Positions 14,924 to 19,212 of a stretch of DNA of 64,000 nt are shown here, piece after piece. Under the pieces are notes generated by a model. That model had not been told where the DNA came from. It worked only from the letters and a program-made list of their open reading frames with translations, and searched no databases. The position numbers and the translations under genes are program-made. How positions within the stretch are numbered: position 1 is the first letter of the stretch; each line of letters begins with the position of its first letter. The stretch is from Halomonas sp. (GTDB taxonomy: Bacteria > Pseudomonadota > Gammaproteobacteria > Pseudomonadales > Halomonadaceae), in NCBI RefSeq assembly GCF_017983445.1, contig NZ_JAGOBJ010000012.1:1-64000 (forward strand). The letters are read 5' to 3'.

Positions 14924-15130
14924 CTTGGCCTATCCCTCTTGCCACTTGAACGTAAAATTTTCCGCCCTAGCGTACCATAACCCAACCAGTAGAGCCTTAG
15001 CTGACGTGACGCAAAGCGTTAATAAACGCTAACCATCCACATTACGCAGTACTAATTAGCCGATATGGCGGGCATCGTGTAGGGTGAAGAGAAGGAAATA
15101 GAAAGGCATACCCTTACAGGAGTAACGATT

Positions 15131-16354
15131 ATGCAGAAGGATCCAAATAAAGGTTATATCGCGCTGCTTGGCTGGAGCCTCAACGCCATCGAAGCCGCAG
15201 AGAAATTTGACCGACGCTATATCGTAGTAGCTCCTGATTGGGCCGAGGAGTATTGCCAGCAGCATGAAATCCCTCACGTAGCCTGGAATTTTGAACGCCT
15301 CAACGACCGCTCTCTGGAAATTGCCGAAACGCTCAAAGAGAAAGGCGTGGACGTGGCCATCCCGCTGTTTGAAGAAACGGTTGAATGGGCTGGCGCCATC
15401 AACTCCGTTTTGCTTGATAACCCTCGCCTTTATGGCCAGTCACTGCTGCTACGTGACAAGGCATTGATGAAGCGGCGCGCCCAGCTGGGTGGAATCCGCG
15501 TAGGGATCTTTGAAGAAGCACACGATAAAGAAGACGTGGTGCGCTTTTTAAAACGCGTCAACCAGACGCTGCTCAAACTCGATGGCGACCCCAACGACCC
15601 CATTCACCTAAAGGCTTTTGACAAGGCGGGCTGCTTGGGTCACCGCGTGATCCGCACTCCTGATGAGATCGACGCCATTCCTGAAGAGGAATTCCCGGTG
15701 TTGATGGAGTCGCATCTGGATGGGTGGGAATTTGCGGTTGAGGCGTGGATTCATAATGGCAAAATCGCCTTTTTGAATATTTCCGAGTATGTCACGCTAG
15801 GTTATTCCGTGTTTGTGCCCGCCTCTCCCGAGCTTGAAAAATACCGTGATCAGATTACGACTCAGATCGAAAAACTGATCAAGGCCTTCGACATTGAGTT
15901 TGGTTTGATTCATCCCGAGTACTTCGTTACGAGCGACGGCGAAATGTACTTTGGCGAAGTCGCCTACCGCCCGCCTGGTTTCAAAGTTTTTGAGCTTCTG
16001 GAGCGCGTCTACGGCTTTAACGCCTACCAAGCCTCAATGCTGGTGTTTGACCCCAAAAGTACGCCGGATGAAATCGCAGCGTTCTTTCCCAAGGAAGTGG
16101 TTGATGCCAACGGCTTTGCCGGCTGTTTCGGGGTTTACCCACGGCGTCGCGTTGTCAGCCGCCTGGAAATCCCTGAAGAGACCGAAGATCACGCTTACTT
16201 CGAGTCGCATGAGCTTACCTCGCCGGTTGAAGAAACGGTTACCAAGCGCACCGCTTTTGGTACCCACTGGGGGCTGATTTACTTCAAGGGCGATGACGCA
16301 CATACCATGCGCGATCTCCTTAAGCGTCAGGAAGACCTCGACTTCTATGTATAA
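15131..16354 (+). CDS. ATP-grasp domain protein, unknown substrate
   Basis: A 407-residue cytoplasmic protein. Residues 1-100 look like the pre-ATP-grasp Rossmann-like domain (YIALLGWSLNAIEAAEKF); residues 105-310 are the ATP-grasp fold, with acidic residues in LMESHLDGWEFAVEAWI (Glu193, Glu200) and the metal-binding segment IHPEYFVTSDGEMYFGEVAYRPPG (Glu263, Glu276, Arg280). Such enzymes form amide or related bonds through an acyl phosphate. The substrate is not recognisable. An AGGAG site precedes ATG 15131. It is followed 30 bases later by the 679-residue gene, so the two probably form an operon. Confidence 0.8.
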   Translation: MQKDPNKGYIALLGWSLNAIEAAEKFDRRYIVVAPDWAEEYCQQHEIPHVAWNFERLNDRSLEIAETLKEKGVDVAIPLFEETVEWAGAINSVLLDNPRLYGQSLLLRDKALMKRRAQLGGIRVGIFEEAHDKEDVVRFLKRVNQTLLKLDGDPNDPIHLKAFDKAGCLGHRVIRTPDEIDAIPEEEFPVLMESHLDGWEFAVEAWIHNGKIAFLNISEYVTLGYSVFVPASPELEKYRDQITTQIEKLIKAFDIEFGLIHPEYFVTSDGEMYFGEVAYRPPGFKVFELLERVYGFNAYQASMLVFDPKSTPDEIAAFFPKEVVDANGFAGCFGVYPRRRVVSRLEIPEETEDHAYFESHELTSPVEETVTKRTAFGTHWGLIYFKGDDAHTMRDLLKRQEDLDFYV

Positions 16355-16384
16355 TCCCAGCGACCACCGGGACAAGGAGTCATT

Positions 16385-18424
16385 GTGACACCTCATGACG
16401 CGCCGCTTTCAAACGCTGGCAAGCTTGACGAGCTGCTGCAAAAACTGGACAACGCTGTGGCGCTGCTGGATCAGGCGCCTGCTTTTTCCAAGCCCGCGAA
16501 ACTCCCCCGCGTGTTGGACACCGCCCGCCGCGTGTTACTACAGCCCGGCGGCTGTGCGGCGCTTGAAACGCGCGCGGCAGTCATTGAAGCGTCGGGTGTT
16601 TTTGCGGGTTCAGATTGGGAAACGCCTCAATATCTCGTGCCTACGCTCACGACATTCTCGCTGAAAAGCGCCGACGCGAACGTAGTAGTTATCGAGGCAT
16701 TAAGTGAATTACGCCTGCTTGCCGTGGCCAAAGGCGACTATCTGCACCCGCTACTCTCTAAGCAGCAGGCGCATCACTATCTGACACAGGTCATGGCGAT
16801 TAACCTCTGGCTGCTGTTTGGCGCGCCCAGTGAAGCCGAGCGTGAAACCCAAGGGCGGCTCTCGACCATTACTCGCCAGCTATTTGGTCATCTTGCAGAG
16901 CGCATCGGTTATGAGCATGTGATTGACCAACTGATCGATGAAATCTGGCGCATCTTGAAGCAGCGGCCTATTCAGGTAGATGCCATCAAGCAGATGATTA
17001 CCCAGATTGCGCTGTGCCAGGCAAACCCGGATATTGATCTGGGAGCCAGCGGGCAAGGCGCCGACCGTTTGGTAAGTTCACTCTATGGACCTACTCAGGC
17101 CTGCCGGGAAGACCCCGGTGTGGATATTTATCGCGAACGCCTTGAGCACATGGATACTTCAGCCTTACAAGCCGAAGCCACGGGATTTGCCCGCGCCATG
17201 CACGATACCGGCCTGGTTTCCCCCTACCACGCCGTACTGATGCGCCACCTGCTTGAAGAAAGCGACTATCTACTCACCGAAGCAATGGGCCTTTCATCTA
17301 CTGGACGTGACTGCCTGCTATGTTATCGCGAGCTTGTTCATGCACTCATCCGCAGCGCCATTTACCCTGCCACTGCGCAGGCGGTGTATGGCTTGGCACT
17401 GCTGCTTGAACGGGGCATTCTTTACCAGCCGCCGGTGGCGCCCGCCATGTGGCGCCAGCTAAATCTGTCGCTTTCCGACTGGACACAGGCACGCCTGACG
17501 CTTGCCTATGGTGAGCTGACTACACCGCGAGCACGTCTACTGGAGGGGGTCTTGTGCATGTTGGGGCTCCCACTAGGTGTAGGCCAGGGCAATAACCCTA
17601 CCTGCCAGTCGGCCAGAGCGCTTTCCATGTGGGCGTACAACGATCCCGACTACTTGTTGCAAATGGTCGCCTGGGCGGCACGCGATGATGAAATCGTCGT
17701 GCATTTTGAAGGACAGCCGATCTCGTCCAAAGAGAGTCAGTCAGGGGTGGCAACATCACTTCCTTCAGACCTTGACCCAGTTTCGCTGATTGTAGTGCCC
17801 CAGCTTGACCGTATCTATGCAGAAATGGGCAGGCGCTGCATTGGTCGTGAAGGTGACCCCCACCGCTGGGTGAATCCTGAGTTTCATGGCTGGTGGTCAG
17901 GCCGCGGGTTTTGCATCAATGTCGACGTTGCCACAGGGCAACTAACGGATATTGATACTTTCATACGCCATTTCTATGCCTGTTATCATCCCTTCTACAA
18001 CGGCAATCAGCCGCTTATCCACCCTCAGCCGGCGGGTATCGCGGTTACCGATAGCGCTGCCCGTTTTATCGGTTGGCATGCCATTACAATACTGCGCGCA
18101 TCGCTTGATCCTTCGGATATAATGCGGCTGTATTTCTATAACCCCAATAATGACAGTGGTCAGGATTGGGGAGATGGCGTCGTTGTGAGCACCGCCGGTA
18201 ACGGTGAGCGCTTTGGTGAGGCGTCGCTACCCTTTGATCAGTTTACGTCGCGGCTGTATATCTATCACTTTGATCCCTTGGAGCACGGTGAGTTGGCAAC
18301 GGTAACTGATGAGGAGCTTGAAGGCGTCAAACAGTATCTATATCGCAGCTGGGGGGGCGCTCGTTTGCCAGATACCGAGCTACAGGCCAATGAAGGCGCT
18401 CACTCGTCAACTAATCAGCCATAA
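16385..18424 (+). CDS. Unassigned 679-aa protein with a papain-like C-terminal pattern
   Basis: I do not recognise the family. Residues 1-390 are mostly helical with no motif I can name. Residues 395-655 show the residues of a papain-like fold in order: Gln401 and Cys407 in GVGQGNNPTCQSARALS, His565 in GWHAITIL, and Asn586 with a following Trp-Gly in FYNPNNDSGQDWG. This is inference from pattern, not homology. There is no signal peptide or membrane helix, so it acts in the cytoplasm unless exported otherwise. The start is GTG 16385 with AAGGAG 6 bases upstream. It follows the ATP-grasp gene by 30 bases and precedes tlyA by 17. Confidence 0.7.
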   Translation: MTPHDAPLSNAGKLDELLQKLDNAVALLDQAPAFSKPAKLPRVLDTARRVLLQPGGCAALETRAAVIEASGVFAGSDWETPQYLVPTLTTFSLKSADANVVVIEALSELRLLAVAKGDYLHPLLSKQQAHHYLTQVMAINLWLLFGAPSEAERETQGRLSTITRQLFGHLAERIGYEHVIDQLIDEIWRILKQRPIQVDAIKQMITQIALCQANPDIDLGASGQGADRLVSSLYGPTQACREDPGVDIYRERLEHMDTSALQAEATGFARAMHDTGLVSPYHAVLMRHLLEESDYLLTEAMGLSSTGRDCLLCYRELVHALIRSAIYPATAQAVYGLALLLERGILYQPPVAPAMWRQLNLSLSDWTQARLTLAYGELTTPRARLLEGVLCMLGLPLGVGQGNNPTCQSARALSMWAYNDPDYLLQMVAWAARDDEIVVHFEGQPISSKESQSGVATSLPSDLDPVSLIVVPQLDRIYAEMGRRCIGREGDPHRWVNPEFHGWWSGRGFCINVDVATGQLTDIDTFIRHFYACYHPFYNGNQPLIHPQPAGIAVTDSAARFIGWHAITILRASLDPSDIMRLYFYNPNNDSGQDWGDGVVVSTAGNGERFGEASLPFDQFTSRLYIYHFDPLEHGELATVTDEELEGVKQYLYRSWGGARLPDTELQANEGAHSSTNQP

Positions 18425-18441: not shown

Positions 18442-19212
18442 ATGTCTTCTATGTTACGACTTGATCAACTGCTGGTCAGCCAGGGGCTGGCCAGTTCTCG
18501 TACCCGTGCCCAGCGGCTTATTCGCCATGGCCGTGTTCGCCTGCTAGAGGCTTACCCGCGTGTACTGACCAAACCTTCAGAAAAGTGGCCTTTAGAGACA
18601 CGCTTACAGGTTGATGATGATCCGGAAGAGCGCTACGCATCGCGCGCCGGCTTAAAGCTTGAAAGCGTACTGAACGTTTTAAATAAGCGCCTTGATGGGC
18701 TGGTCGTGTTAGACGTTGGCCAGTCGACAGGGGGCTTTACCGACTGCGCGCTGCACTTTGGCGCACATCACGTACTCGGTGTTGAAGTGGGCCACGGCCA
18801 ACTTATCGATTCACTTCGCCTGGATCCGCGGGTAACTTGCCTGGAAGGCCTTAATGCCCGGCATATGAGCACCTCGCCAGCGCTACAGGAAGCTATCGCG
18901 GCGTTGCCGATTGATATCGCGGTCATGGATGTCTCGTTTATTTCACAGACGTTAATATTGCCTGAAATTGCCGCGCTGCTGACGTCTGGCGGAGAGCTGA
19001 TTTCCCTGGTCAAGCCACAGTTTGAACTAAGCCCCGGGGCGCTTGACAAGCGTGGTATCGTTCGCCGGGCAGCTGACTACAAGATCGTTGAGGAGAAAAT
19101 TCGTACGGCGTGTAGCGCCTGCGGATTAACCATACAGCACTGGCAGGAAAGCCCGATCACCGGTGGAGACGGCAATCGGGAGTTTCTTCTTCACGCCATC
19201 AAACAAGACTAA
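18442..19212 (+). CDS. tlyA: TlyA-family rRNA 2'-O-methyltransferase (hemolysin A family)
   Basis: A 256-residue protein with an N-terminal S4 RNA-binding domain (LRLDQLLVSQGLASSRTRAQRLI) and a C-terminal FtsJ-type SAM methyltransferase domain (VVLDVGQSTGGFTDCAL, then SLVKPQFEL). In mycobacteria TlyA methylates 16S and 23S rRNA; the target here is inferred. It starts 17 bases after the 679-aa gene and may be cotranscribed with it. Its stop overlaps the mscK stop on the other strand by 4 bases. Confidence 0.88.
   Translation: MSSMLRLDQLLVSQGLASSRTRAQRLIRHGRVRLLEAYPRVLTKPSEKWPLETRLQVDDDPEERYASRAGLKLESVLNVLNKRLDGLVVLDVGQSTGGFTDCALHFGAHHVLGVEVGHGQLIDSLRLDPRVTCLEGLNARHMSTSPALQEAIAALPIDIAVMDVSFISQTLILPEIAALLTSGGELISLVKPQFELSPGALDKRGIVRRAADYKIVEEKIRTACSACGLTIQHWQESPITGGDGNREFLLHAIKQD

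Follow-up and report, generated by a model that had tools for sequence, protein, structure and literature searches.

A conserved ATP-grasp ligase and papain-fold protein pair in Halomonas and its possible tie to ectoine-type metabolism

We examined two adjacent genes in a 64,000-nucleotide stretch of DNA from Halomonas sp. (RefSeq assembly GCF_017983445.1, contig NZ_JAGOBJ010000012.1, positions 1 to 64,000 of the forward strand; hereafter "the window"), the first of which, P1, encodes a putative ATP-grasp ligase and the second, P2, a protein with a predicted papain-like domain (Table 1). An earlier note, made from the letters of the window, had described the two genes as lying on the same strand, 30 bases apart, each behind a good ribosome-binding site, and the open reading frame calls and a direct reading of the sequence bear this out; certain other loci show an 8-base overlap of the two frames. 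Purifying selection acts strongly on both genes: the ratio of non-synonymous to synonymous change (pN/pS) is 0.005-0.085 in P1 and 0.05-0.21 in P2 (four comparisons per gene, after removal of matches with <85% coverage and of duplicate sequences). P1 is the more conserved member of the pair, with 75-94% identity to the window sequence among 22 chosen homologues, as against 50-82% among 30 homologues of P2. Promoter and terminator patterns did not rise above those of shuffled sequences.

P1 belongs to the ATP-grasp superfamily, as judged from a profile match together with conserved ATP- and metal-binding residues. The match to Pfam PF13535 (ATP-grasp_4) is a narrow pass, at 27.3 bits for a cut-off of 27, and the motif residues that the earlier note had picked out, Glu193, Glu200, Glu263, Glu276 and Arg280, are all invariant in an alignment of 23 sequences. 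A profile of P1 also finds two solved L-amino acid ligases, 3vot and 4wd3, in a weak match over part of the length (E about 7e-4), and the ATP-grasp region with Glu263, Glu276 and Arg280 can be aligned with these enzymes. By family, P1 is a putative carboxylate ligase, and its substrate cannot be read from the sequence. A distant P1-like ATP-grasp protein (28% identity) is encoded at L190:4792-5739 in a genome without P2, and four other genomes are alike, such that P2 accompanies these distant genes in none of the five (0/5).

P2 falls outside known families, as had been supposed: no Pfam or NCBIfam profile, those of the named papain-superfamily families included, scored above its cut-off, the P2 sequence found nothing in PDB better than E 0.7, and a profile of its domain gave no match among PDB sequences up to E 10. 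The full-length AlphaFold model (mean pLDDT, a per-residue confidence score, of 84.9) likewise gave no significant Foldseek match (best E 0.16). Structure prediction and fold search did recover the papain-like fold that had been proposed for the C-terminal half. This predicted domain shares about 9-14% identity with the papain-fold domains of calpain, staphopain, PCAT1 and phytochelatin synthase, from which P2 differs by a 364-residue helical N-terminal region; that region gave only weak, mixed helical-repeat matches, and by eye no signal peptide is obvious.

Within the predicted domain, Gln401, Cys407, His565 and Asn586 keep the papain-like order noted earlier and are invariant in 31/31 full-length sequences, paralogues near 50% identity among them, and in 44/44 domain sequences with identity down to 49%. 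Trp595, which had been named alongside them, is nearly invariant in the 31 full-length sequences, and Cys407 is the sole cysteine among the positions invariant in that set. With 54 of the 296 domain positions invariant, the chance that all four named positions would be so is about 0.1% by our own arithmetic. In the predicted secondary structure, Cys407 stands at the start of a helix, His565 inside a strand and Asn586 just after the next strand, places that we take to be those of the papain triad. On the model, P2 is a predicted Cys-His-Asn enzyme of papain fold, with no named family in the libraries scanned.

Genomes may also hold paralogues of P2 at about 50-55% identity, up to three extra per genome and often without an adjoining P1. 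One follows immediately upon a putrescine transporter operon of PotFGHI type, in two genomes that belong to one genus (L055:5280-11458, L062:941-6870; L and G labels denote our loci and genomes), and one adjoins a fatty acid desaturase gene, again in two genomes of one genus (L057:5050-8165, L060:4955-8064). Transporter neighbours at Halomonas loci gave only 23-47% matches to Pot queries and were set aside.

Table 1. The gene pair in the window and the predicted functional positions of P2
Feature	Position	Strand	Basis
P1, ATP-grasp carboxylate-amine ligase (putative), 407 aa, ATG start	15131..16354	+	Open reading frame, PF13535 match, weak profile match to 3vot/4wd3, invariant motifs
P1 ribosome-binding site AGGAG	15118..15122	+	Direct sequence reading
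P2, 679 aa, GTG start; helical N-terminal half and papain-fold C-terminal domain (predicted)	16385..18424	+	Open reading frame; AlphaFold model
P2 ribosome-binding site AAGGAG	16374..16379	+	Direct sequence reading
P2 residues 1-364, all-helical region	16385..17476	+	Secondary structure of AlphaFold model
P2 residues 365-660, papain-like domain	17477..18364	+	Predicted fold
P2 Gln401, oxyanion-hole position by analogy with papain	17585..17587	+	Invariant 44/44
P2 Cys407, predicted nucleophile, first residue of helix 407-419	17603..17605	+	Invariant 44/44; secondary structure
P2 His565, predicted catalytic base, in strand 561-574	18077..18079	+	Invariant 44/44; secondary structure
P2 Asn586, predicted third catalytic residue, directly after strand 580-585	18140..18142	+	Invariant 44/44; secondary structure

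The two genes occur together. In a sample of 293 genomes from the order of the window genome, P2 is present in 40 and full-length P1 in exactly the same 40, with a weak P1-like match alone in one more. Further genomes of the same genus that carry P2 have full P1 in 20/20 cases (one with P2 in two pieces); the exceptions in the genus are G015, with remnants of both genes, and G024, with neither. Outside the order, P2 was found in 12/12 P1 genomes, 11 of which had been selected by P1. The association extends to position: 40 of the 51 full P1 copies in the order sample lie within 1.1 kb of P2, and the conserved neighbourhood on which the earlier note's pairing of the genes depended was recovered among loci of named genomes (the best 80 of 585 confirmed P2 relatives), with a full P1 immediately upstream of P2, in the same orientation, at 70 of them. 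Among the other named loci, L129 is cut by a contig end, and nine without a full adjoining P1 (L080-L083, L087, L097, L117, L118 and L138) show a P1 remnant, no match or a distant partial match. The named hosts are mostly halophilic or marine genera, including Halomonas and Marinobacter (Gammaproteobacteria); a strain of Halomonas elongata (L119) is among the carriers of both genes.

Eight genomes lack an intact P1 beside a paired-type P2: G299 and G212 (order sample) and G001, G013 and G014 (genus) keep a P1 remnant there, and G252 and G193 (order sample) and G007 (genus) have none; full P1 is encoded elsewhere in 8/8. In these data, P2 withstands unlinking from P1, not loss of P1. A decayed (C-terminal remnant) or vanished P1 beside an intact P2 was seen at L016, L018, L019, L022, L032 and L080-L083, with full P1 elsewhere in the genomes searched. 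The idea of a plasmid-borne element was rejected, the single record in the plasmid collection being a 1.8 Mb Halomonas replicon.

Near P2 paralogues and unlinked P1 copies, three partners recur: a class II HDAC-type deacetylase, a GNAT protein and the ectoine synthase EctC. The deacetylase resembles class II HDAC/HDAH enzymes in having a Hist_deacetyl domain and, as best PDB relatives, HDAC6 and HDAH-type proteins, but it forms a separate clade that is restricted to P1+P2 genomes in the sample. A profile seeded from four of the 23 genomes that carry this clade, with only matches of E <=1e-60 listed, found 26 matches at 484-715 bits in these 23, the next score being 273 bits; 23/23 of the genomes fall within the P1+P2 set of 40 and 0/253 outside it (Fisher p 1e-23, a value that, like the related ones, overstates the evidence because the genomes are related; the genome lists were entered by hand). 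Among the 45 neighbour clusters listed, HDAC is the sole recognised family that extends across distant lineages, besides generic ABC-transporter ATPases.

In seven families (G067, G193, G100, G084, G757, G834 and G918), at most about 3.2 kb separate the deacetylase gene from P1 or P2; the same holds for EctC in six (G026, G090, G193, G287, G100 and G834) and for GNAT in two (G193 and G100). At HDAC loci away from P1/P2, GNAT adjoins HDAC in 7 of 20. Several gene orders are found, with HDAC (P2-HDAC-P1-EctC at L185, P1-P2-HDAC at L184, P2-P1-HDAC at L188), with EctC only (P1-P2-EctC at L048, EctC-P1-P2 at L233) or with GNAT (EctC-P1-GNAT-HDAC at L169, EctC-GNAT-HDAC beside P1 at L172), and they fall in separate parts of the P1 tree (midpoint root; 85 of 139 P1 rows, most named Halomonadaceae omitted). 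Within the order, linkage was seen in 5 genomes for EctC and in 4 for HDAC, versus Poisson expectations, roughly estimated, of 0.2 and 0.17 genomes (p about 2e-6 and 3e-5). The GNAT protein of L169 did not match the EctA model TIGR02406, and six other acetyltransferase models all stayed below cut-off.

The EctC proteins pass the ectoine synthase profile PRK13290 (cut-off 128 bits) at L169, L172, L048 and L233, with 189, 173, 169 and 192 bits, respectively. Setting the clade boundary at 199 bits (our own choice; the next score is 179) gives an EctC clade in 19 genomes, 16 of them with P1+P2. In 15 of these 16, no other EctC match was found (the exception is G193; G191 has two clade copies), and 15 of the 16 (not G311) have EctB above the curated cut-off, as do 33 of the 34 genomes tested with the EctB profile, versus 0/14 controls. 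The surroundings of ectB were taken for 15 of the 34 genomes. Stretches of 9-12 kb around ectB hold no EctC in 9/9 of the clade-bearing P1+P2 genomes without another EctC that were inspected (G084, G043, G100, G287, G026, G306, G206, G252 and G212), and EctC adjoins ectB in five comparison genomes (G000, G193, G090, G918 and G757). EctA scores above cut-off in 7/7 tested stretches lacking ectC, and in 8/9 (not G026) an aspartokinase gene, confirmed by profile in one case, follows ectB at the place expected of ectC. In these nine genomes, ectC has left the ectA-ectB operon; the clusters in question are L236, L237, L238, L240, L241, L242, L245, L246 and L247, and the only EctC found lies elsewhere. 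In G026, G100 and G287, it adjoins P1 or P1-P2, and the module is tied to ectoine synthesis in these lineages, while EctC and P1/P2 are unlinked in most others. G206 has a further EctC beside a decayed P1. For G834, the stretches around its two ectB genes contain no EctC, the whole genome not having been searched for it.

These ectA-ectB operons changed our reading of the unlinked EctC proteins as orphans, as they occur in the same genomes, and they therefore raise the odds that the pair is concerned with ectoine and slightly lower those of three rival readings. Passages in two papers state that the function of orphan EctC proteins is unresolved (PMC5924519, PMC6344544). The proteins described there and those found here share an ectC gene away from ectAB; unlike them, most of our copies are the only EctC found, with EctB present, and an extra copy beside P1 is seen only in G193 and G090. 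As these EctB-carrying genomes showed no other EctC, most unlinked copies are probably working ectoine synthases. The Fe- and substrate-binding residues given for P. lautus EctC in the relevant section of PMC6344544 have equivalents in 5/5 clade proteins, compared by eye, in which Trp21, Ser23, Arg25, Thr40, Tyr52, Glu57, Tyr84, His92 and Phe106 are invariant; because these residues are kept, the clade is likely a functional ectoine synthase. A change from Asn38 to His in the clade was considered as a substrate clue and dropped, the same His being found in the L233 EctC outside the clade. This second EctC (L233:6099-6503), which by score lies outside the unlinked clade, stands 213 bases upstream of P1-P2 in a genome that keeps an intact ectA-ectB-ectC cluster, which suggests a separate recruitment. 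Overall, the genomes examined resemble the known ectA-ectB-ectC-ask pathway in carrying ectA-ectB, most with an aspartokinase gene, but differ from it in that ectC is split off or duplicated and placed with ATP-grasp, papain-fold or HDAC genes. At one unlinked EctC locus in one genus (L226:3583-4842), a nearby gene resembles, by eye, an ornithine/lysine decarboxylase.

In the window itself, a TlyA-type gene (named by eye; 18442-19212) starts 18 bases past the P2 stop. An operon of the pair with this gene was considered and dropped: the contiguity holds in only part of the Halomonadaceae, with a displacement of at least 1 kb in others, and in the examined loci beyond this family (best 80 loci) no TlyA-type gene lies on the same strand.

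Taken together, the enzyme classes (from profiles, predicted fold and conserved residues), the co-occurrence and the recurrent linkage are well supported, and all observations would fit a scheme in which the ligase and the thiol enzyme work on a single product. We put at roughly 50% the probability that P1 and P2 form the heart of a module of small-molecule amide metabolism with ties to compounds of the ectoine type. In such a module, P1 would couple a carboxylate with an amine at the expense of ATP, so that ectoine, a close relative or the open-chain precursor of ectoine would carry the new amide, and P2 would hydrolyse or transfer the same or a related amide; an acyl group would be removed by the HDAC-type deacylase in many lineages and added by the adjoining GNAT in few, and in several lineages EctC stands beside P1/P2, in some cases with no other copy found in the genome. 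The neighbouring HDAC-type deacetylase, GNAT and EctC genes make a small molecule the more likely substrate than a peptide tag, and because these three recur beside P1/P2, ectoine, N-acetyl-diaminobutyrate, diaminobutyrate or a close relative is the likeliest substrate. It is tempting to speculate further that P1, P2, the HDAC clade, GNAT and the relocated EctC make up a new branch of ectoine metabolism, in which P1 would conjugate ectoine or its open-chain precursor to an amine, P2 would release or transfer it, and the acetyl group from which EctC closes the ring would be under the control of HDAC and GNAT; the conjugate would then serve as an as yet undescribed compatible solute, storage or signalling form. 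This fuller scheme we offer as tentative.

Several observations weigh against a tie to ectoine. The window genome has the pair without the HDAC clade, as do 17 of the 40 P1+P2 genomes overall, and its ectA-ectB-ectC cluster is of the ordinary kind and lies on a different contig from P1 and P2 (ectA being named by similarity). Three of the 19 EctC-clade genomes (G097, G232 and G272) lack P1/P2, in most of the 19 EctC is not near P1/P2, and G193 and G090, whose ectA-ectB-ectC cluster is intact, carry the EctC beside P1 as an additional copy. Counting EctC of any type, 40/40 P1+P2 genomes have it versus 53 of at least 63 same-family genomes without P1 (p 0.006 at best; the control was counted by hand, and the EctC negatives are minima); because the same-family controls are nearly equal, this co-occurrence is weak evidence only, and a shared salty habitat may explain much of it. 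Finally, the reaction, direction and substrate of P1/P2 are ones we infer.

Among the alternatives, polyamine conjugation survives best, though we consider it unlikely: P1 would conjugate a polyamine with an amino acid or peptide, P2 would be the amidase, as in glutathionylspermidine synthetase/amidase, and HDAC and GNAT would remove and add polyamine acetyl groups. The P2 paralogue that ends a PotFGHI-type operon in two genomes speaks for it, but this transporter link is confined to one genus; the HDAC clade profile does match the polyamine deacetylase HDAC10 and, more weakly, acetylpolyamine aminohydrolase, yet it scores HDAC6 and HDAH-type proteins above the latter, and EctC beside P1/P2 is left unexplained. 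Slightly more doubtful still is a dipeptide-like osmolyte or storage compound, with P1 as an L-amino acid ligase on ordinary amino acids, P2 as a dipeptidase and the EctC and HDAC links as side branches. The nearest solved sequence relatives of P1 are indeed L-amino acid ligases, but neither the restriction of the HDAC clade to P1+P2 genomes in the sample nor EctC beside P1/P2 in six families would be explained. That P1 modifies a protein with a residue or tag, which P2 takes off again, seems improbable. ATP-grasp enzymes and papain-fold proteases act in this way elsewhere, and the large helical region of P2 could bind a protein; however, the remaining partners are small-molecule enzymes, and no tag-peptide or carrier gene was noticed among the recurring neighbour clusters listed (40 and 45), in which open reading frames under 70-90 aa were not compared.

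We regard it as very improbable that shared salt-habitat gene content alone, with no common function, produced the pattern. Most of the named hosts do come from halophilic or marine genera, and same-family relatives without P1 often have EctC, but adjacency was built with different gene orders across families, an intact P1 is missing beside P2 only where another P1 exists (eight cases), and no genome of the sample has the HDAC clade without the P1/P2 pair. An anti-phage defence or toxin-immunity unit has the least in its favour, for although papain-fold proteins occur in such systems (among them some fold-search matches), PADLOC gave 0 matches for four proteins, no phage records with P2 were found, and conservation within the genus is strong.

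Glutathionylspermidine synthetase/amidase has both an ATP-dependent amide ligase and a papain-superfamily thiol amidase activity in one bifunctional protein; P1 and P2 resemble it in this combination but are two genes, and neither matched its Pfam or NCBIfam profiles. What is already known is this ligase/thiol-amidase principle, and what is new is the linkage of an HDAC clade and EctC around P1/P2. Among the papers searched, none has both "ectoine synthase" and "ATP-grasp" and none of those listed describes the module, by title or start of the abstract; Halomonas, Marinobacter and ectoine are absent from the main text of a classification of papain-like enzymes (PMC10318531).

The P1/P2 pair is widespread in halophilic and marine Gammaproteobacteria, Halomonas and Marinobacter included, and its linkage to the HDAC clade and to split-off EctC offers a concrete lead to an undescribed reaction around ectoine, which finds wide use as a compatible solute. 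Some orphan-looking ectC genes are the only EctC found in ectA-ectB genomes and now have a recurring neighbourhood. The pair and its neighbours point to an undescribed branch of small-molecule metabolism.

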